Part shown: piece by piece, positions 6,839-49,348 of the stretch
Numbering within the stretch: the first letter of the stretch is position 1
Layout of the letters: the number at the start of each line of letters is the position of its first letter
Assembly: GCF_001262715.1 (NCBI RefSeq)
Contig: NZ_CP012328.1
Coordinates: forward strand, 62,001 to 126,000
Reading direction: 5' to 3'
From: Spiroplasma turonicum
GTDB taxonomy: Bacteria > Bacillota_I > Bacilli_A > Mycoplasmatales > Mycoplasmataceae
Length of the DNA stretch: 64,000 bases
Translations under genes and position numbers: made by a program
Notes under the pieces: model-generated
What the model was told of the DNA's origin: nothing
The model's input: only the letters and a program-made list of their open reading frames with translations
The model's database searches: none

Positions 6839-7768
6839 ATGAGAATCTTAAAAGCAAAAGACATTATAACAAATTTTGGTTTAGAAACTTTATCAAGTAA
6901 CGAAGAACTTTTAGAAAATAAAGTTGAAGTTTATGGTGTTAATAGAGCAGGGCTTGAATTAGCAGGTTATTTTGAAGAAGGAAAAAAATCTCATAGAATA
7001 ATAATGATGTCTACAAAAGAATATCAGTATATTATGAACTTTAATGAATCTGAAAGAAAAGAAAGATACAAGAATTTATTTAAACTTAATGTTCCACTTA
7101 TAATAATTACTAAAAAGTTTGCTGATTCTTTATTAATTGATTGTGCAAAGTCTAATAAAGTTTTAGTTGCAAGATCTTCATCTGAATCTACAAGTAACTT
7201 CACACAAACTTTATTGGAATTTATGGATGATTATTTTGCTCCAACAACTGAACTACATGGTTCCTTAATAAATGTATTCGGTAAAGGAGTTTTACTAGTT
7301 GGTGAATCAGGAATAGGTAAGTCAGAGATTACTTTAGACCTTATAAAAGCAAACCATTTATTTGTTGGTGATGATAGAATTGTTGTAGTTAGAAAATACA
7401 ATGAGCTCTTTGGTAAAAGTCATGAAATTTTAAAAAATCTTGTTGAAGTTAGAGGTATAGGAATTGTAGATGTATCTAAGACAAACGGTTATCAGGTAAT
7501 TATGAATGATACAAAAATAGATATTGTAATTGAACTATCTCAATTTAAAAACAATGGCACAGATGATTATGATAGAATTGGAAGCGATTTTCAGACTTAC
7601 TCAATATTAGGTGCTAAATTACCCTACATCAAAATACCTGTTGCTACAGGTCGAAATATTCCAAATATCATTGAAGTAGCTGTAGCCAAATTAAAACTAA
7701 GACAAAACTCTAATTACCAAGACGAGATTGAACTTATCGCAGAAAGAACTCAAAACTATAATGATTAA
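6839..7768 (+). CDS. hprK: HPr kinase/phosphorylase
   Basis: HprK phosphorylates HPr on Ser46 and removes that phosphate again, linking glycolytic status to PTS uptake and carbon control. The 309-residue length is typical. GESGIGKS (155-162) is the Walker A-type site, followed by FVGDDRI, the RGIGIVDV motif and the C-terminal VATGRNI loop (usually PxRPGRN in Firmicutes; here the Arg-Pro is Ala-Thr). The ATG is 2 bp after the folT stop. Its substrate HPr is encoded at 40029 and keeps Ser46, so the pair is complete within this window. hprK-lgt linkage is common in Gram-positive bacteria. Confidence 0.95.
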   Translation: MRILKAKDIITNFGLETLSSNEELLENKVEVYGVNRAGLELAGYFEEGKKSHRIIMMSTKEYQYIMNFNESERKERYKNLFKLNVPLIIITKKFADSLLIDCAKSNKVLVARSSSESTSNFTQTLLEFMDDYFAPTTELHGSLINVFGKGVLLVGESGIGKSEITLDLIKANHLFVGDDRIVVVRKYNELFGKSHEILKNLVEVRGIGIVDVSKTNGYQVIMNDTKIDIVIELSQFKNNGTDDYDRIGSDFQTYSILGAKLPYIKIPVATGRNIPNIIEVAVAKLKLRQNSNYQDEIELIAERTQNYND

Positions 7769-9155
7769 TTTCTTAAAATCAGGGGAATGAGTAAATGGAA
7801 GTCCAATTCCCGAAAACATTTTCCCTATGGAAGATGGTAGGTATTCTGATAGTCTTTCTTTTTTGTACTCTATTTTTATATTTATAGGAGTAATTGCGGT
7901 TATTGCTTCTTCAATAGTTTGTCTAAGAATAAAAAAAATACCATTGAAAGAGTTTATAAATGGTATTTACATATCTATTCCTGTTGCAATAATAGGGGCT
8001 AGCATGTTCGGAAAACTAGGTTCAACAGGTGAGGATTGAAAAATATATAGATTATTTTTTTTCTGAGAACCTGGACTAAGTTTTTTTGGTGGTATGTTAT
8101 TTGGGAGTTCAGCTGCTTTTATTTGGTTTTGACATAAAAAAAGAACAACAAAAATATCTATATGGGTATATGCAGACGCCATAGTTCCAAATGTATTAAT
8201 TGGTCAGTCAATAGGTAGATGAGGAAATTTATTTAATCATGAAATAATGGGTAAACAAGTATCAGATTCACAAATGAATAAAATAACTTGATTACCTGAG
8301 TTTATATGACACAGACTTTTTTATTTTAGAAATCCACAAACTGGTGAGGAACTAACTTCATTACAATTTAGAGAACCACTATTTTTGTATGAATCAATTG
8401 CAACATTTTTATTTTGAATAATAATTATTTTTTTAATCCCTAACATTTGAAAATTAATTAATAAAAAACCTTACAATTTAGACCCTTATGCATTCCCATG
8501 TAAGCGTAATAAAACTGCGAAATGATTAGTACAAGAAAAGCTAATCAACTATAATACTCAAATACCAATTGTGTATTTAAAAAATAAAAATAATGAGTTT
8601 AGTATGAGTATGTCATGAGTATGAAAGAAAGCTTTCACATTGTATGAGGCTGATAATGTTAAAAATAAAGAATTTCAAAAAATAATCGATACAAGAAAGC
8701 AAGAAGTAATTAAGGCAGAAAAAAACTACACCAAGTTAAAAAAAGACATTAAGGAAAAAATTAAAAAACTTAAGCTGCTCAATAATTACAAAGATAAAAT
8801 TAAAGAATTAAAAAAAGATACTAACTTTATACAATGAAGAAAAAATAAATCAAGAATAAGAGAATTTGTAGGCAGAAACTCTAAAGAACTTTATAAAATA
8901 AACAATCCTTTAGACCTTAAAGTTTTACATTGTGGTGCAATAAGTTCAATTTATATAATATTTATATCCACATTAAGGATTTTGCTAGATTCATTCAGAG
9001 ATCCTTATGAGTTATCTGTTAAAATGTTACCTGTTTTAAATTATTTATCTTTAACAGGAATTTTAATTATGGGTATAATTTTGTTAATTTTTTCACAATT
9101 TATAACACCAAAAAAATGAAGAGAAAGTGGATGATTATATGAAAAATCATATTAA
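7761..9155 (+). CDS. lgt: Prolipoprotein diacylglyceryl transferase, divergent paralogue 1
   Basis: Lgt transfers diacylglycerol from phosphatidylglycerol to the lipobox Cys of prolipoproteins in the membrane. The signature GRWGNLFNHEIMG is present, as are several TM helices and a late TLRILLDSFRDP segment matching the conserved C-terminal Arg region. At 464 residues it is far longer than typical Lgt (about 260-300) because of a Lys/Glu-rich, probably coiled-coil insertion (about 293-358) in a cytoplasmic loop. The normally conserved SFHGG reads SFFGG, with Phe109 in place of the His, and RHP reads REP. ATG 7761 overlaps the hprK stop; an internal ATG at 7827 is less likely because the N-terminal SGEWVNG region fits the family. 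It may be a specialised or inactive paralogue. Confidence 0.85.
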
Positions 9156-10127: not shown

Positions 10128-11450
10128 ATGTTATCAAGTTGATTACAAGGCAATAATTGGTCTGAAGAAAATGTAGGCACAAGAGTTTATAGTGATTATG
10201 GATTTGTTCATATTTATGCTTTGACCATGACACTTGGTGTTATATTATCAATAGCAGGATGTGCCGTTCAATTCTATAGAAAAAAATTGAATTTTAGAGA
10301 ACTTTGAATAGCGGCTGTTATTGTTGTACCAGTTGGTCTACTTGGAGCAAGCTTTTTTGGTAAATTAAATGCTCAAAATGGTAGTAATGCTGACGGCGTA
10401 GGCTTTTTTGGTTTATTTGCTTTTTGAAAGGCAGGAATGTCTATTCATGGTGCAATTTTTTCAACAGTTACAGTTGGTATAATCATGTTCAATATTGTTT
10501 CTGTACGTAACAAAGTTTCAGTTTGAGTATATGCTGATTCAATAGCTCCTAATGTACTTCTTGGTCAAGTAATTGGTAGATGAGGAAATTTTTTCAATCA
10601 CGAATTATTTGGAAAACCAGCAGGTCTTTATGAAGATAAAAATGTAATGTCTTGATTACCAGCTTTTATAAGAGATAATATGGCATTTAGATATACTGGA
10701 AGTAGTACAAATGATCTTATACAAGGTCAAGTTTATGTTATGCATCCAATATTCTTGTATGAATCTTTTTTCTTATTAGTAAGTTGATTAATAATTACCC
10801 TTGTTTTACCATTTATTGGAAGATGAATTGGTAAAAAACCCTGAAAATTAAATCCAGAAAAATATAGTTTTGATATAAAATACTCATATAAATATTTTTT
10901 TACTAGAAAAAAAGAAGAAGGTAAAAAAACATATTGAGATGTTTGAGAAGAAGCAACATCTTTAAATTTTGAAGAAAAACAAAAAGATAGATATATAAAA
11001 GAAATTGATAATATAAATGATAAGAACCCAATAATAAGAAGGTTTAAAAAAGGAAAATTATTAATTGATACTAACAACCCAAACAAATATCTATTAACAA
11101 GAAGCGGTGTTGAATTTGGAGGCTATTTCTTTGCTTGAAATTTTATTCGTTTTATGCTCGAATTAGATAGACCAGATGATCACTTATTTATAATGTATCA
11201 AAAAACTTTATCATTAACACTTATAGGGTTAACTGCATTTTCAGGTTTAGTCATAATCTTTTTAACACAGTGAATACTACCTTATTTTATAAGGAAACCT
11301 GGTTATATTTATGAACAGCATTATTTTTATGTTAATAATGTAAAAGATAAAAGTGAAAATAAACATATAGTTAAAAACACTGAACCAAATCCAAAAGTTC
11401 TAAAAGCACAAGAGAAGTTAAAAAAACAATTAGAAAAGAAAAATAAATAA
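10128..11450 (+). CDS. lgt: Prolipoprotein diacylglyceryl transferase, paralogue 2
   Basis: This second Lgt has 440 residues and keeps the key features: GMSIHG (His107, the His missing from the first copy), GRWGNFFNHELFG, MHPIFLYES, and the late FIRFMLELDRPD segment with the conserved Arg. The first TM lies near residue 28-48. Like its paralogue it has an inserted charged cytoplasmic segment (about 255-320) and a basic tail. It is therefore the better candidate for the working enzyme that anchors lipoproteins. ATG 10128 follows a purine-rich stretch; a TATGAT/GATAAAAT-like sequence at 10091-10100 may be a local promoter. Its TAA shares one base with the whiA start. Confidence 0.92.
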
Positions 11451-35021: not shown

Positions 35022-35987
35022 ATGTTAATTTCATTTATAACAGTAATCCCTAATACAAGTGAAGAATTCAAAGAATCTATTGAAAGTGTTATTAAACAAA
35101 ATAATTATGAAGATTATGAGTTAATTGTTATACTTGATAAACTTAATCACGAAACAAATATGGACGAGTATTTTATTAATTTGTTTAAAAAATATAATAA
35201 CATAAAGTTAATTTTTAACAATGATAGACATGGATCTTCATATTCTTGAAACTTAGGTCTCGACATTTGTAGTGGAAAATATGTTAAGTTTATTTCTCAA
35301 GGAGATACAATTGATAATGATTTCATAAAATCTATTAAAAAGTATATTGAAGAGAATAAAAATAATATAGACATAATTGAATACAGCTTTTTGTTAAAAA
35401 GTGACAAAGACATACAGTCTAAATCTTATTTAGAACCTAATAAAGTTTATAATTTAAAAGAAGATTATAAGCCTTTTGCATATACAAATAATCTATTGTT
35501 TAATAAATTATTTAAACTTGAAATTATAAAAAATTTTAATTTCAATTTTAGAAACCAGGTAAGATTTGATATGTTGTTTATTTATAAATTATTGAGCCAG
35601 TCAAAAACATATTTATATTTAAACTCCAAAAACTATGAAAATATAATATTAAGACCAGTACAATACTCAATTTTTGATATTGTAAATCAATGAACACATA
35701 TTTTTAATTACTACAGACGTATAAAGAAATATAATGAAATTTCAGACTATTTAAAATATTCTTATTATAAAACCATACTTCATATTTGAATATGAACAAT
35801 CTCTAAAACTGATAATAAATTACTTATTAAAAAAGCATTAGAATTTGCAAATAGAAAATATGAAAACAAAAAATCAGATTTCATAAAAAATAATAAAGTA
35901 TTTTTAGAATCAGAAGATTTAACTTTTAAAACATTAGCTGAAAATTTTTCTAGTTATTATAAAGATAAGCTTAAGAATATTAAATAG
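35022..35987 (+). CDS. Family 2-like glycosyltransferase
   Basis: The 321-residue protein begins like GT-A fold family 2 enzymes: LISFITVIPNTSEEFKESIESVIKQ, then ELIVILDKLN, and RHGSSYSWNLGLDICSGKYVKFISQGD, where other family members have a DxD metal site; here the acidic pair is reduced to GD, which is unusual. The C-terminal half is rich in Lys, Tyr and Asn with no TM helix. Such enzymes add sugars to lipids or surface polymers, but the donor and acceptor cannot be told. TGA at 35247 and later are Trp. The next gene starts with no gap, suggesting one operon. Confidence 0.75.
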
Positions 35988-37799
35988 ATGAAGTCAACAA
36001 AAAAAAGTATTTATCAGTATGAAATTACATTTAAGGACCCTTCAGTTTTCTTATTATTGATTGCTAGATTAATTGATTTATTAATAGCTTCATTGCCTAT
36101 GATTATATTTTATATATTTTATAAAATAAATGATTTAAAAAGTGCGCTAATAGTTTTTTCTATATACCACTTAATAATCTTCTTTTATTTTGTTATGATT
36201 CCTTATTTTTCTAGTGGTAACACAGTGGGTAAGTGGATATTTAATCTTAGATTAAAACTTGATAATAAAAATAAGTATTTTTCAAAACTTTTGCTTAGAG
36301 AGTTTTATTATTTATATATACCTTTTATTGTTCAAATATTAGCAAACATAATATCAATTGTAATTTTTAAATATTATAATCCTGGTGAAAATGATTCTAA
36401 GTTAAATGGGTGAACACTTTCAATTATAGTAAGAAATATTGGAAATATCTTTTTATCCGTTTGATTTTTTTATATAGCTATCACTGTTTATTTAAACAAA
36501 AATAATAGATCTGCAATTGATTCAAGACTTGGAATTAATGTAAAGTTATTGTCTAAGAAACTTATTATCAATAATAAAAACGATAAAAAAATAATAGAAG
36601 TAAATCATCCGGGGGTTTTTAATATGGAAGATGTTTTAAAAAAAGATTTAGATAATTTTAGTAATATAAATAGTTTAATTAATAGTTGGGTAGATAGTTC
36701 TTTTATAAATGGTGCTGTATTAATTATCAAAAAAAATAATAAAGTAGTATTAGACAAACAGTATGGTTACAATGATACTTTTAATAAAGTTAAAATGAAA
36801 AGAGATCAAATATTTAGAGGATACTCAATAACAAAAATTTTAACAGCAATAGCAACTTTAATGCTTGTTGAAAAAAACTTATTAAGCCTTGAAGATGATG
36901 TAAGTATTTATTTACCCCATTTTAAAAAATTAAAGGTTATTGATAATGGTATTATTAAACCTATAACAAACAAAATAAAAATAAAAAACTTATTAACAAT
37001 GACAAGTGGTTTAGCGTATGGAGGTAAAAAAACACATACTGAAAAGGAGACAGAAAAATTACTTATAAAATTGAGAAATAAAGATTTGACCTATGATGAA
37101 TTTATAGAAGAGTTATCAACAATCCCATTAGAGTTTGAACCTGGTACAAATTGAAAATATGGAATATCATATGATGTTTTGAGCGCTATAATTGAAAAAG
37201 TATCTAAACAAAGCTTTAGAGATTTTGTAAAACAATCAATCCTTGATAAACTTAATATGCAAGACACAGATTTTTATATTAAAGATAAAGATCGTGAAGC
37301 ACTTGTTTATAAATTAATAACAGAAAATGAAAACAATAAATTAGAGGAACTTAAAAACTTTAATTTTCTGTTACAAGATTTGTATAATCAACCGATTATA
37401 TCAATGGGAGGTTCTGGACTATTTACTACATGTCCAGATTATTTAAACTTTCTTAGTTTTTTACTAACAGGAAAAGACAACCAAGGTCAAACAATTATAT
37501 CTAATAAAATGCTTGCTTTAATGAGAAGCGATCAAGTATTAAGTTTGAAAAAGTATCTTTATATGAACATCAATGATGATTATTCATATGGTTATGGTGT
37601 GAGGGTTAGATTAAATAATTCTATTGAACCACTTACTACAATAGGTCAATTTGGATGAGATGGTTTATTAGGATCTAGTTGTATTATCGATCCAAAAAAT
37701 GAAGTAATTTTATGTTTTATGACAAGTGTTAAACAAAATAATGATACTATTGTTAGGGAACTACAAAAAAGTCTTTACGAAGATTTAAAAAAAGCTTAG
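35988..37799 (+). CDS. RDD membrane domain fused to a serine beta-lactamase-like hydrolase
   Basis: The frame is open for 603 residues. Residues ~18-190 look like an RDD family membrane domain (ARLIDLLIASLPM, GKWIFNLRL, then RSAIDSRLGINVKLL), with about four helices. From ~212 a serine hydrolase of the beta-lactamase/class C penicillin-binding type follows: YSITK (Ser280-x-x-Lys283 catalytic pair), LLTMTSGLAYG, YGISYDVLSAIIEK, and GQFGWDGLLGSSCIIDP in place of the KTG box. Mollicutes have no peptidoglycan, so an esterase or peptidase role is more likely. An internal ATG at 36624 has a G-rich stretch before it and could give a separate hydrolase; a fusion is favoured because no stop intervenes. 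Confidence 0.78.
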
Positions 37800-37806
37800 A
37801 GGTAAT

Positions 37807-39969
37807 ATGGATAAATTTTTTATAAATTTGAATAATGAACAACTAGAAGCAGTAACAACTGTAGATGTACCTGTAAGAATTATCGCTGGTGCTGGTAGTG
37901 GTAAAACTAGAGTGATAACTTCAAAGATTGTTTATTTAATTGATAATGCTGGTATTGAACCAAAGAAAATTTTAGCAGTAACTTTTACTAATAAAGCTGC
38001 TTCTGAAATGAAAAATAGAGTTGAAAAAGCACTACCAAATTTATTAAATAAACCTATGATAACAACTTTTCACTCTTTATGTGTAAGAATATTAAGAGAA
38101 GATGGTAATTACATTGGTTTATCGAATGATTTTACAATAATTGACTCTGCAGACCAATCAAGGATTGTGAATAAAATAAAAAAAGATTTAAATATTAATG
38201 AGGAACTAACTTTTAGCACAAAAAAGATAATATCGAAATTAAGTGGTTGAAAATCTAAAAGATTATCAATTGATTATTTAATAGATAACTTAATTAATAA
38301 TGAAGAAAAAAAAATAATTAGAATATATGAAAAATATTTACAAGAATTAGAAGACAAAAACTATGTTGATTTTGATGACTTAATTTTAAAAACACATCTG
38401 TTGCTTAAAAATGATGAAGAAATTAAAAATAAATGGAGAAACAGATTTAATTATATTCTTGTTGATGAGTTTCAAGATACAAATTACGATCAATATGATT
38501 TAGTAAAATGGTTATCAAGTACTAACAATCTTACAGTTGTAGGAGACCCAGATCAAACAATTTATTCTTGAAGGGGAGCTAAAATAAAAATAATTCTTGA
38601 TTTTAATAATTATTTTAAAAATGCTAAGACCGTTTTTCTAAATCAAAATTATAGATCAACAAAAAATATACTTGATTTAGCAAATCATTTTATTGATAAA
38701 AATGAACAAAGAGAAAAAAAATACATTCATACTCAAAATGATACTGGTCAAATAATTAAAGTTAAAGAAGCAGCATCTAGAAATTATGAAGCTAAATTTG
38801 TAGCAAAAGAGATTAAAAGATTAATAAAAGAGGGAAATTACAACTTTTCTGATATTTTTGTTTTATACAGAGTTAATGCTTGATCTCAAGAATTCGAAAA
38901 AGAGTTTCATAACAATGGAATACCTTTCCAATTAATTGGAGGTTTCAAATTTAAAGATAGAAAAGTAATTAAAGATGTGACTGCTATGATTAAAGCCGTA
39001 ACATTTAAAGATAATTTATCAGTTGAACACTTTTTATCACTTATACCAAAGGTAGGTAAAGTTTCAATCGAAAAACTTGTTAATTTATCAGATGAACTTA
39101 ACATAAGTTTATATAATTTATTAACTGAAAATATTAATACTGCATTTTCTATAAATAAAAATTTAAATGATATACATAATGCACTTCTTAAAGGTTCAGA
39201 ACTTGTAGAAAAAAATATTTCAGTTTTAGAAACTTGTAATAAATTATTGGAATACTCTGGTTATTTAACTAGATTTAATCCAAGAGATAATGAGGATCGC
39301 GAATCAATTAGTAACATTAATGCTTTTTTAGATCAAATGTCTAACTATGATAAACAATATGTTCATACTAAGGAATCTAATATTTTAAAAGATTTTTTAT
39401 ATAATGAAGCATTAGTATCTGACCAAGATGATCTAGAAGTTGTAAATAAAGTAACATTACTCACTATTCATGCTGCTAAAGGTCTTGAGAATAAAGTGGT
39501 TTTCATCGTGGGTGTAAATAGAGATGTATTTCCTTCTTATATGAGTTTTATGTCTAAGGAATCATTGGAGGAAGAAAGAAGAGCATTTTATGTTGCTATG
39601 ACTAGAGCTCAAGAGTTATTATATGTTTCATATGTAAGCGGCGAGTATTCTAATATTTCAAAAGGCAGCTTAATACAGTCCAGATTTATTGAAGAACTTA
39701 ATCCTGATTTATATGAATTAGAGACAAACATTTTTTTCCATGATAGTAATACATATACAAGTAATAAACCAAAATATGATGTAAATACAAGTGAAATAAA
39801 AAAAGAAGCTATGAAACTTGCTAAAGGTGATAAAATAGAACATATAGTTTTTGGAGAAGGTTCAGTTATTAAGGTTCAAGATAAATACATATCTGTAGCA
39901 TTTATAAACCCAACACATGGAGTAAAAATGGTTCCAATTAATTCATCAACTTGAAAAAAATATAATTAA
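37807..39969 (+). CDS. pcrA: ATP-dependent DNA helicase, UvrD/PcrA type
   Basis: This superfamily 1 3'-5' helicase acts in repair, replication restart and removal of RecA. The 720-residue protein has the Walker A AGAGSGKT (27-34), TFTNKAASEM, the Walker B variant VDEFQDTN, GDPDQTIYSWRGA, and VTLLTIHAAKGLENKVVFI; the C-terminal HIVFGEGSVIKV region is the PcrA-type Tudor-like tail. TGA codons at 38248, 38569, 38881 and 39952 are Trp. AGAGG precedes ATG 37807. It fits with uvrAB in this window. uvrD and pcrA are not separable by eye; the tail favours pcrA. Confidence 0.93.
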
Positions 39970-44079: not shown

Positions 44080-44829
44080 ATGATTGAAATCAAAAAAATA
44101 GCAAGAAAAATAGGTGGATTTAGTTTAAAAGAAGTAACTTTTAATATAAATGATGGTGATGTAGTTGCTTTTGTCGGTGATAACGGAGCAGGAAAAACCA
44201 CAACTATTAAAGCTTTATTTGGGGAGTTAAAAATTGATAGTGGGGAAATTTTAATAGATGGAGAAAGTATTTTTGCTAACAACAATCTAAGAAGAGTTGC
44301 ATTTTTCCCTGATTCAAACAATGTTCCTTTAAATATGAAGTTATCAGATTACTTAAAATACATTTGTGCTGCAAATGATTTATCAAAAGAAGAAACTGAA
44401 TTAAATACTGAGTTTGTATATAGACTATTAGAATTAAAACCATATAAAGATAAACTTATAAAAAAATTATCTTCTGGTTGAAAAAAGAAAGCTATAATGG
44501 CAAGTGTACTTATTAGAAAGCCTAAATACATTATTTTTGATGAGCCAACAGCAAATGTTGATGTAGAATCAAAACTTTATTTTATGGATATATTCAGATT
44601 ATTAGCAAAAGTCGGAATTACAATTCTTATAACTAGCCATATTATTGAAGAGTTACAAGAAGTGGCGAACCATTTAGTTTTAATAAAAAAAGGAACCATA
44701 GTTCACGATGAATTATTTGATAACAAAAAAGAAAAAATTATGGATGTTTATAAGAAACACATGAACAGTCCAATTAAGGATTTATCTATTTTAAATAAAC
44801 TATATAGTTCAAAAAGAAAGGAAAACTAG
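44080..44829 (+). CDS. ABC exporter ATP-binding protein (copy 1)
   Basis: The 249-residue ATPase has FVGDNGAGKTTTIKALFG (Walker A), the signature LSSGWKKKA (Trp from TGA 44479), FDEPTANVD (Walker B) and ITSHIIEEL (H-loop), the pattern of ABC-2 type exporters. It is paired with the permease that starts 1 bp after its stop. The copy at 46705 is clearly a paralogue with the same LRRVAFFPDSNNVP-like block after the P-loop. The substrate is unknown; drug, peptide or lipid export are all possible. Confidence 0.9.
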
Positions 44830-44830
44830 T

Positions 44831-46696
44831 ATGGATTCCAATTTATTAAAAAAAAGTAACAATCATAATTCTTATAAAAATTTTAACAATTTATATGCTA
44901 TAAACTTAAAAATAACTTTAAAGTCTCCTGGTATCTTAACAATGGGTATTATAATGGCAGCTCTATTATTTATACTATTTATTATTGAGTTTTCAGTAGA
45001 GTACTCAATAGAAGCAAGTTATTCTACATATAGAGATATTGTTTATATATTTATAAGCTTCACAGTATTGCTTTACACGCTTGTTTCAAGTTTTTATCTT
45101 TACAAAAAACAAAATAAAACAGGTATTCAAGCTATTGAATTACGAGCTGGATATACAGTATTAAAATCTTTCTTGATTAGACAATTCGTTCAATTAACTT
45201 CCTTTTTTATATATGTTTTACCAGTTATTATTTTGTCTTTTTCTTTTATTTACATTTTTAATATGACAATATCATTTTATTTTGGCACTGTTTTTTCACA
45301 AATATTTTTTATATTGTTTTTAGGTCTATTCTCAACAATAATTATAAATTCATTTGTATTATTGTTTAAAACCGCGATGTCAGCATGTTTATCAACAATT
45401 TTTATTATTATTTTATCTTTAGTACCTTTTATTTATAATTTATCTAAAATAATGAATAGCAATAAAGAAATACAAAGTTACATATCAACAAACTTAAAAT
45501 TAAAGTCAGGTTATGATTTTTATGATAATTTTAAAAATAATCAAGAAATAAATTATATTTTCAGTGATGAATCTAAAAATCAAAATTCTAGTACTCTTGA
45601 AAACATATATGAAAATTATAATAGTGCGTTATTTAATTTGGATAATGATAGTGTATATAATAGACTAAAAAGTGATGATATAAAATTATGAAGATTCAAT
45701 GAAAGAAATTCAAATGATCCTATTCTTGTTTATCCTATTAAAAAAGGTGCGGTTTTATTTAACTATATGTTAAAAAATGAAAATCAAGAAAATGATAACA
45801 AAAGTTGAACATTATTAAATAATACTAATATTGGAAAGCTATTATTAAATATTAATAAACAGCTATTGGATATAAATTTTGAAAGCTTACCAAAAAAATT
45901 TAGTAACATAAAACCAAATATTTATAACTCATATATATATTCAACAAACAATAAATTAAATGTTACATTAGAAAACTTATTAACAGCATTTAATAATTAT
46001 CTTCCCCAATATAATGATCTTGCAGAATTTATAAATAACTTTTATATAAGAAATTATGAATATTTAACAAATAATAATAGTGAAAACATTAAATTATTAG
46101 ATACCATAAGCACAAGTGGTGAAAATGGTAATAACAGTTGATTAAAATGAGATGAAGGTATAAAGAACATATCAGGTAGTCCGGACAAAGATATTGTTGA
46201 ACAAAATAATAATTATAAAAAAAAGTATGAAAAATTTCCTGAGTTATTGATTTTTAATTCAATATTATTAGGTTTATGAAAAAATAGTATGATTTTCAAT
46301 GTTTATGATAAGTTAGATGTAAGTTACTCATTAGATTCTTATGAAAATTTTAAACAAAAGTTCTCAGGAGCTTCTACAAACATTATTTTACATTTCCCAA
46401 TGATGTTTAGTGGTGTTTTTATGAACCCAGTCCAAGATGATAGTTTAAGCACTATAGCTACTTTATCGGTGTCAAAACCATCAGCCTATATAAGTAATAT
46501 TTTCAGTTTTGAAAAATATGCTCCAGAAAACAAAATTAATACAAATAATCCCGCTCTTGAACCAATATATAAAAATAGTAATTTAGAATATTCTTCTTAC
46601 TTTATAAAAGGGCTAGCATTCTTTATTTATTTATTACTTGTATCACCAATAGTTTATTTTAACTATATTTTATTTAAAAGAAAGGCAAAAATTTAG
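44831..46696 (+). CDS. ABC exporter permease with large extracytoplasmic domain (copy 1)
   Basis: The 621-residue protein has an N-terminal soluble stretch, about six hydrophobic helices in residues 30-215 (for example ILTMGIIMAALLFILFII and VFSQIFFILFLGLFSTIII), then a large hydrophilic Asn/Ser/Lys-rich region (220-580) and a last helix (GLAFFIYLLLVSPIVYF). This layout suggests an exporter with a big outer domain. Low-complexity content makes a family call unsafe. Trp codons are TGA (45689, 45806, 46139). It is encoded right after its ATPase. Confidence 0.78.
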
Positions 46697-46704
46697 GTAT
46701 ATAT

Positions 46705-47466
46705 ATGATTGAACTTAAAAACATTACTAGAGAAGTCGGTGGATTCTTACTAAATAAGGTTAGTTTTAAAATAAAAAAAGGTTCAGTTGTTGCATTTGTT
46801 GGCGATAATGGTGCCGGAAAGACAACAACTATTAAAGCTATGTTTGGCGAACTTAATTTGGATAGTGGTTCGATAACAATTGATGGTGAAGATATTTTTA
46901 AAAATAATAATCTCAGAAAAGTTGCATTTTTCCCTGATTCAAATAATGTTCCAATGGAATTGTCTTTGAGAGATTATGTTAATTATTTGTGTTCAGTTAA
47001 TGGAATGAGTAAAAAAGAAATTAAAAATAATTCAAAAGAAGTTTTTAAAATGTTGGGTTTAGAAAAGTTTGTAAATAAAAGATTGGGCCAATTGAGTGCG
47101 GGATGGAAAAAACGTGCTATAATGGCAAGTATTTTGGTTAGAACCCCAGATTACATAATACTTGATGAACCCACAGCAAATGTTGATGTAGAAGCTAAAC
47201 TATCATTTATGAATATATTACATGAGTTAAGAAATATAGGAGTTACAATTTTAATTACTAGTCATATCCTAGAAGAATTACAAGAAATGGCAAATTATTT
47301 AGTTTTAATAAATGAAGGCCAAATTGTTTATGAAAGTGATTTTGATAACAAGAAAGAAAGCATTGCAGATATATATAAAAAATTTAGACTAAATAAAGTT
47401 GATAAAGAAAAAATTCTTAAAGAACTTTATCAAAATGAAGGAGCAAGTACTAATGAGTTCAAATAA
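46705..47466 (+). CDS. ABC exporter ATP-binding protein (copy 2)
   Basis: The 253-residue ATPase parallels the copy at 44080 throughout: FVGDNGAGKTTTIKAMFG, VAFFPDSNNVPMEL, LSAGWKKRA (here Trp is TGG) and LDEPTANVDVE. This is the mark of a tandem duplication of ATPase plus permease. It overlaps the next permease by 14 bp. Substrate unknown. The two copies could form one heteromeric exporter or two separate ones. Confidence 0.9.
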   Translation: MIELKNITREVGGFLLNKVSFKIKKGSVVAFVGDNGAGKTTTIKAMFGELNLDSGSITIDGEDIFKNNNLRKVAFFPDSNNVPMELSLRDYVNYLCSVNGMSKKEIKNNSKEVFKMLGLEKFVNKRLGQLSAGWKKRAIMASILVRTPDYIILDEPTANVDVEAKLSFMNILHELRNIGVTILITSHILEELQEMANYLVLINEGQIVYESDFDNKKESIADIYKKFRLNKVDKEKILKELYQNEGASTNEFK

Positions 47467-49348
47467 TGGATTAGAAAATAAGGAAATTAAAATTCCTAAA
47501 AAAAATAAAAATAGAACTAAATCAAAAATTAGAACTTTATTCTTAATAAATTTAAAGAGAGTTTATTTTAATAAAGGTATAATTGCAATGGCTTGTGTTT
47601 TTTTGATTTTATCATTTATATTTGCACTCTCATTACCGACTACTGTCGATAGTTCGTTTTTTATTGGTTTTACAATTCAGTTTTTTTTATTAGTTTTCTT
47701 TTATATTGTTTTTATAACTCTGTTAATTAATGACTTGTTCAAAAGACAAATGATTGATGGAGTTCAAATTATAGAAATTCGATCTGGAATTAAAATTCAT
47801 AATTCTTATATGATGAGATATTTATTATATTTAACAGTTTCATTTGTAATATCTACATTAAATCTTATTATAAATATAATATTCAAATCAGGTGTGATGT
47901 TTTCAAATAATGAAGTTTCGAAATTAATATGGAGTACAATATTGTTCTTTTTCTTATTTACAATTATATGAGCCCCAATTATTATCTCTATTAATGTCTC
48001 AGTAAGTGTAGCTGGATCAATTGTTCTAAATTTATTCTTAGGAACAATTCTAATTTTTTCACAATTTATATCAGTAATAGCTTTTCAAATAGCAGTAAAC
48101 AACAATTTTAATGATGTGAAATTATCATCATTAACTGCTTGAACTGCAAAAACAGATATTTCTTATTCAATGTATGAAAATTTTAAAAATGATGGTTCAA
48201 TATCTAAATGATATGAGGATGAATATTTTATTGATACTATAAATAAAAACCTAGAAAATATTTATTCAAAAGTTGAAAATGACGAACAAAATCAAAATTA
48301 TAAATTCTCCTTTAATAATTGAAGTGAGCTTCATAATATTCAAAATAATAAGTTTTCTTCAAATAGTCAAAACATAAGTGCTGAAACTGCTTTGGGAGAA
48401 TCTTTAATTGGATTTAGAACAAATTATGCAATTAAAATAGATAACGAAGGAAAACCAATACATATTCTAGATAATACAAAGCTATTTATCTTATTTGATA
48501 AAATGTTTAATTTATTAAATGATAATTTTATTAGTAACGAATCAAGAGCACCTTATAATAACGCTGATAAAAAAACGTTTTTATCTGAAGAAAATGATAT
48601 AACTAGTTATATTGATATATCAAATTTAATAGACTGATTTATAAATCAAAATGAACTTAGGGAGTATAAAGAACTTTTGATTTGAGCAAATAAAGAATAT
48701 AACAAATATGCTACATCATTTGCAGCAGCTTCTAGTTCTAATTACTACTCATCAGAAATATACTACTTCCTACAAACTTATTCAAAAAATTATTTACTAT
48801 CTAATTGAAAAAAGAATATACCATATGATACAAATGATACAAAATTAATAAATTATAATAATAATGTTGATAAAGTTTATAATAGATACCCTGAATTAAT
48901 ATTAATAAATTGATTTATAATTAGTAATTATATAAATGGTATAAAAGCAGATATTACTACTCAAGAAAACACAACTTTTAAATCTTATTTAAATAAACTG
49001 GATAATAAAGCTATTAGCTCAACTTCTATGGTTTTATATAATCCGTTTAGTCATTTCTGAAATTTATATTTCAACTCATTTACTGAAGCAATACCAAATG
49101 ATTTATTTAACTCTTCATTAAATGATGTTTGACAAGGTCCAAGAAGTTCAATAAAAAACTTCAGCGAATTAGAAAAATATAATTCAAAAAGTAGAATTGA
49201 TGATAAATTATACCCTATTTATAAAGAGTATAAACCAAATTATACATTAACATTTAGCATTACTGGAGCTTATGCATTTTACATATTATTTTCTATTTTA
49301 ATAACTTTTATATCATTTTTAATATTTAGAAAGGTATCAAGAATCTAA
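47453..49348 (+). CDS. ABC exporter permease with large extracytoplasmic domain (copy 2)
   Basis: The 631-residue protein repeats the design of copy 1: a first helix after KRVYFNKG (about 45-65), further helices to ~235, a hydrophilic outer domain of about 350 residues, and one last helix (GAYAFYILFSILITFISFLIF). ATG 47453 lies inside the ATPase gene after GAAGGAG; the in-frame TTG/ATG upstream has no RBS. In-frame TGA codons are Trp. It ends with an intrinsic terminator that closes the four-gene exporter block. Confidence 0.78.

Follow-up and report, generated by a model that had tools for sequence, protein, structure and literature searches.

The fusion gene and its neighborhood

The window analyzed here is a stretch of 64,000 nucleotides from Spiroplasma turonicum, a wall-less bacterium of insects, whose genome comprises 1,261,374 bases in one contig. 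At 35988–37799 on the forward strand, it carries a gene of 603 codons, uninterrupted under translation table 4, in which an RDD membrane domain is joined to a serine hydrolase domain (Table 1). Both parts matched their Pfam families above the cut-offs, RDD at residues 24–178 (36.5 bits, cut-off 24.1) and Beta-lactamase at residues 240–585 (164.9 bits, cut-off 27). The initial annotation had proposed this combination of an RDD domain and an S-x-x-K hydrolase in one frame, and the positions it gave for the serine and lysine, Ser280 and Lys283, were correct. It had also named a stop or frameshift between the domains as evidence against a fusion; inspection of the frame from 35988 to 37799 revealed no TAA, TAG, or frameshift between them. 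Four tryptophans in the frame are encoded by TGA (W142, W159, W389, and W557). An artefact of misread stops was ruled out, as five relatives are fused alike and the neighboring genes likewise need table 4. The same single-frame fusion was present over about its full length in these five further genomes, with identities of 57–58% in two and 41–43% in three. The fusion is therefore real, being neither a chance joining nor an assembly error.

Table 1. Features of the fusion locus, in window coordinates.
Feature	Position	Strand	Basis
GT2 glycosyltransferase gene, directly upstream	35022–35987	+	Pfam E 1.2e-11
RDD-hydrolase fusion gene	35988–37799	+	603 aa, table 4; Pfam; five fused relatives
RDD membrane domain, residues 20–169	36045–36494	+	Pfam, AlphaFold, conservation
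RDD tail and flexible linker, residues 194–220, with invariant Pro208-Gly209	36567–36647	+	low pLDDT, alignment
GGGGG and ATG (Met213), possible internal ribosome-binding site/start	36611–36626	+	
Family VIII esterase/class C beta-lactamase-fold domain (predicted), residues 221–603	36648–37796	+	
Motif I, S280-I-T-K283	36825–36836	+	S, K invariant in 29/29
Motif II, W389-K-Y391	37152–37160	+	W, Y invariant in 29/29
Motif III, W557-D-G559	37656–37664	+	W, G invariant in 29/29
Helicase gene, 7 nt downstream of the fusion	37807–39969	+	conserved neighbor

The adjacent glycosyltransferase that had been pointed out earlier does abut the fusion gene, its stop codon touching the fusion gene's ATG, and no other gene of this genome matched PF00535 at E ≤ 0.001. 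The gene downstream is presumably a UvrD/PcrA-like helicase. A GT2 gene lay immediately 5′ of the RDD gene in 29/29 loci, 20 from the genus and nine from 40 other genomes of the family. Each of the 29 stretches also contained the helicase gene further downstream, separated by other genes in G001 and G006. At the G001 locus (L043, 9566–12757), pflB–pflA lie between the fusion and the helicase, while in the window pflB–pflA precede the GT2 gene. Reading by eye also revealed two ABC ATPase-like genes at 44080–49348, each with the gene of a large membrane protein behind it (249/621 and 253/649 codons); this tandem pair of like transporters is also present in several relatives. Two Lgt-like prolipoprotein transferase genes (7728–9155 and 10128–11450, by eye) flank a thioredoxin-reductase-like gene.

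Fused, overlapping, and separate forms

All 20 genomes of the genus contained at least one of the two parts. The fusion was found in six (G000, G005, G011, G018, G009, and G001), and RDD and hydrolase were adjacent separate genes in 11, so the pattern that had been named as refuting the fusion, a separate hydrolase in all homologues, was not seen. The remaining three lacked a neighboring hydrolase: G003 and G012 encoded one elsewhere, and G004 had the RDD gene only. In 10 of the 11 split pairs, the two genes overlapped by 8 nt, the hydrolase ATG lying inside the RDD gene in a different frame; in G006, the overlap exceeded 8 nt by an amount that depends on the start. One small indel can consequently join or separate the two genes, and the overlap in relatives points to a possible joint action of the two parts. 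Across the order, the hydrolase was detected in 32/298 genomes at E ≤ 1e-10, all within this family, and where the family hydrolase occurred outside the genus it lay away from the RDD gene. Given this, and the GT2–RDD loci of the genus that lack a neighboring hydrolase, the pair is not obligatory. Among 392 genomes of the phylum, no match spanning both domains was found outside the genus; only the same six were recovered.

The fused genomes did not form one clade (AU p 1.2e-9, tree of five neighboring proteins). Three changes between fused and split states were required on the five-protein tree and two on the hydrolase tree, and the fusion was thus seen in two or three lineages. In the hydrolase tree, the 17 fused or adjacent hydrolases formed one group (87/81), apart from 12 located elsewhere. 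From these two trees, the hydrolase arrived once beside the RDD gene and was then joined, or joined and parted, more than once. The exact order of events is unsure, since the G024 branch is long and several supports fall under 95.

The junction itself carries GGGGG at 36611–36615, 8 nt before the ATG of Met213 at 36624. It had been suggested that this G-rich stretch leaves open a second start for a free hydrolase. Pairing of the stretch with the anti-Shine–Dalgarno sequence was estimated at −9.8 kcal/mol, which places this ATG fifth among 307 internal ATGs, against −1.4 at the main start; two analyses took slightly different upstream stretches, which is why their pairing energies differ. A junction ATG with an SD-like sequence was kept in 6/6 fused genes, and in G018 it sits exactly at the split-gene start. 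The fraction of control windows that were as good was 0.007 in G000, 0.000 in G018, and 0.019 in G009, and the junction was not significant singly in G005 (0.147), G011 (0.078), or G001 (0.064). Taking the six genomes as independent gave a Fisher p of 6.8e-6, which is overstated; combined by three lineages, p was 0.003 with medians and 0.008 with the least favorable member of each. The suggestion thus stands as far as the conserved start is concerned, and a second, free hydrolase product is plausible as a prediction from sequence. The G-run, for its part, contributes to the codons of Pro208-Gly209, a pair unchanged in the RDD tails of 29/29 sequences with or without a hydrolase; the codons used here are the rare CCG (10 of 467 Pro codons) and GGG (59 of 970 Gly codons; 42 window genes). 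Nor is Met213 the relic of an ancestral hydrolase start: its position aligns with the RDD tail, carries Met only in G000, G005, and G011 (0/26 other RDDs), and is followed about 8–11 residues later by the starts of the split hydrolase genes. Met213 may be a newer start.

Fusions of an RDD domain to other partners were looked for among the matches listed, where eight long RDD frames were read by eye, with L098 and two of the seven others scanned with Pfam. L098 (769–2334, minus strand, genome G445) encodes an RDD domain fused in one frame to a PHP phosphoesterase. The order, RDD and then a hydrolase domain, is the same as in the window; the hydrolase there is of the PHP type, and the fusion comes from a single genome, in a different family within the class. 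The other two scanned frames contained RDD only. By eye, L096, L097, and L099–L103 are RDD genes of 500–600 codons in which a long stretch separates the first membrane helix from the remaining RDD part, and they carry a long charged tail. In the literature searched, by title and opening of the abstract, we found no description of the RDD-hydrolase fusion, its cytosolic side, or the split–overlap–fused series. Each of the two parts is known.

The two domains and the membrane side

RDD proteins are widespread. The domain in the fusion carries the Arg and two Asp conserved in the family as R27, D30, and D178 and scores above the PF06271 cut-off, and all 29 mollicute RDDs compared matched PF06271 at E ≤ 0.1. 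The invariant residues among them were R27, D30, K82, R104, E105, and W159, plus D178 just after the domain. A profile comparison with an alignment of other RDDs of the class (20/21 rows RDDs) gave 98.8% in hhalign. A score above the curated cut-off, the R/D/D residues, and a G-x-T-x-G-K loop are shared with the RDD family at large; what differs is the soluble C-terminal hydrolase and the invariant Pro-Gly tail of the 29 mollicute sequences. One member of the family is reported to be a Na+/H+ antiporter (PMC5996927), and a conserved binding site accessible from the cytosolic side has been announced (PMC12419801).

An AlphaFold model built from an alignment of 48 rows had a mean pLDDT of 91.1, with a pTM of 0.68 that limits confidence in the relative arrangement of the domains. 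The RDD part was predicted to contain four long helices (20–44, 50–74, 94–129, and 142–169), followed by a linker predicted to be disordered at about 194–220 (pLDDT under 50 at 197–207) and a complete hydrolase fold beginning at residue 221. The top structural match of the RDD-part model (window 35988–36674) was 7t92_B, a chain of the peroxisomal Pex2/Pex10/Pex12 ubiquitin ligase, with a Foldseek probability of 0.98 but an E of 0.11; VIA gave a Z of 11.1 over 177 aligned residues at an rmsd of 7.0, the next row having a Z of 5.5. A Pex2/10/12 relationship was set aside as a likeness of structure only, with little support from sequence: the Pex2_Pex12 model matched 0/29 RDD sequences at E ≤ 0.1 and was not among the best 25 of the 29 families matched by the RDD alignment.

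The hydrolase domain is, by sequence and model, of the family VIII carboxylesterase type, and esterase activity is predicted. That family is defined by S-x-x-K, a tyrosine, and W-x-G in place of K-T-G (PMC6995599), and the domain has motif I, the motif II tyrosine, a W-x-G motif III, and the class C beta-lactamase fold. S280, K283, Y391, W557, and G559 were invariant in 29/29 aligned hydrolases. The carboxylesterase EstU1 (4ivi) was the closest solved structure both by sequence (E 3.9e-47) and by fold (Foldseek E 1.7e-29, TM 0.83 by target), with EstG, EH7, and Est-Y29 next. The motifs, the fold, and a length of ~390 residues are common to the domain and to EstU1, Est-Y29, EH7, and PsEstA; here, in contrast to those enzymes, a membrane domain is joined at the N-terminus and the gene lies in an operon with a glycosyltransferase. 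A class C beta-lactamase was not indicated, with W-D-G instead of K-T-G and a score of 33.1 of 415 bits for the curated model. The same was true of a DD-peptidase of the PBP4B type (65 of 385 bits; predicted cytosolic topology). No PF00905 transpeptidase was found in the 1.26 Mb genome, while 10/14 control genomes contained one, which fits the premise of a wall-less cell. Of the membrane-anchored esterase or peptidase first proposed, the membrane-anchored serine hydrolase was upheld, and the W-x-G motif together with the EstU1 fold argues for an esterase rather than a peptidase.

A prediction of topology, recommended in the initial annotation along with the search for related fusions, placed the hydrolase on the cytosolic side. 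In 29/29 RDDs, the segments taken as inner held 15–27 Lys and Arg and the outer loops 0–6, in accordance with the positive-inside rule, the inner segments also being longer. Hydrolases encoded as separate proteins lacked a hydrophobic N-terminal stretch in 23/23 cases (best 15-residue mean hydropathy 0.23–1.38). Given this charge pattern and the free relatives without a hydrophobic N-terminus or signal peptide, the hydrolase most likely faces the cytosol and not the host.

Candidate functions

The reading we favor, with about an even chance of being right, is that the gene encodes a carboxylesterase of family VIII type that faces the cytosol and that the RDD domain keeps at the inner membrane face beside a glycolipid-type transferase. 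Its predicted membrane side and catalytic apparatus are well supported by sequence and model. An ester may be offered at the inner leaflet by the RDD domain or by the neighboring glycosyltransferase; Ser280, which Lys283 and Tyr391 would activate, would then be acylated by it to give an acyl-enzyme. The likeliest substrate would be an acylated lipid or glycolipid intermediate, from which the acyl group would be released; a lipid is a guess from context, since family VIII enzymes are promiscuous. The two genes would have been neighbors with coupled translation before they were joined (or parted again) more than once, and a share of the hydrolase may still be made free, from the junction ATG, alongside the tethered protein.

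Two other accounts of the pairing appear unlikely to us. The RDD domain could be a sensor that restrains the serine hydrolase at the membrane, by analogy with SppI, an RDD protein encoded beside SppA in Bacillus subtilis that inhibits this protease through its C-terminus (PMC7568657). There too, an RDD protein is paired with a membrane-bound serine hydrolase, and the translation overlap in split genomes and the Pro-Gly tail, invariant in 29/29 RDDs and a possible control element, would suit such a regulatory pair. The tail, however, is equally invariant in RDDs without an adjacent hydrolase and is thus not specific to it, and SppA is a protease of a different family encoded by a separate gene, whereas the partner here is PF00144. 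The RDD domain could equally be a mere anchor or passenger, with a hydrolase that landed in a conserved operon and was fused by a frameshift over the 8-nt overlap, no joint function being implied. The overlap in 10/11 split pairs and the hydrolase absent or elsewhere in 3/20 genomes are consistent with this account, which is no less doubtful; against it, the fusion occurs in two or three lineages with the active site and the RDD signature residues both retained.

Readings that change the enzyme's task or its side fare worse. A detoxifying cytosolic esterase or beta-lactamase-like enzyme would agree with the class C fold and with the nitrocefin-opening activity reported for certain family VIII members (PMC6995599), but it is quite improbable given the missing wall target (no PF00905 in the genome), the W-D-G of motif III where K-T-G would be expected, and the class C score far under its cut-off. 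An esterase or peptidase that faces outward and attacks host molecules, one of the targets named in the initial annotation, draws on membrane anchoring alone and is contradicted by the RDD loops, which put the C-terminus inside, and by the free relatives without N-terminal hydrophobic segments. With the hydrolase predicted in the cytosol, we consider it highly improbable.

The favored membrane-held esterase may also bear on the minimal cell. In JCVI-syn3, the GT2 gene _0697 shares 20% identity with MG517 and on that basis is assumed to make Gal-DAG (PMC6609329). The RDD gene _0696 downstream of it is reported as essential; read-through into _0696 is required when _0697 carries an insertion, a case counted as driving an essential gene (PMC6755753). 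The loci analyzed here likewise have an RDD gene directly after a GT2 gene; the correspondence of the two gene kinds is one of order and family, and, as a difference, no hydrolase is reported in JCVI-syn3. On a broader and rather unlikely proposal, GT2, RDD, and esterase would form a lipid-remodeling unit of the inner leaflet, each fused gene would yield tethered and free esterase through its retained internal start, and the recurrent fusion would serve, in Rosetta-stone fashion, as a clue to what the essential RDD gene does in the minimal cell. Repeated joining of an RDD domain to an enzyme would offer a concrete hypothesis for the RDD partner, its membrane side, and its chemistry, and the split, overlapping, and fused forms make up a natural series in which this hypothesis can be tested. 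The main value of the finding would lie in the pointer it may give to the function of the essential RDD gene of JCVI-syn3.
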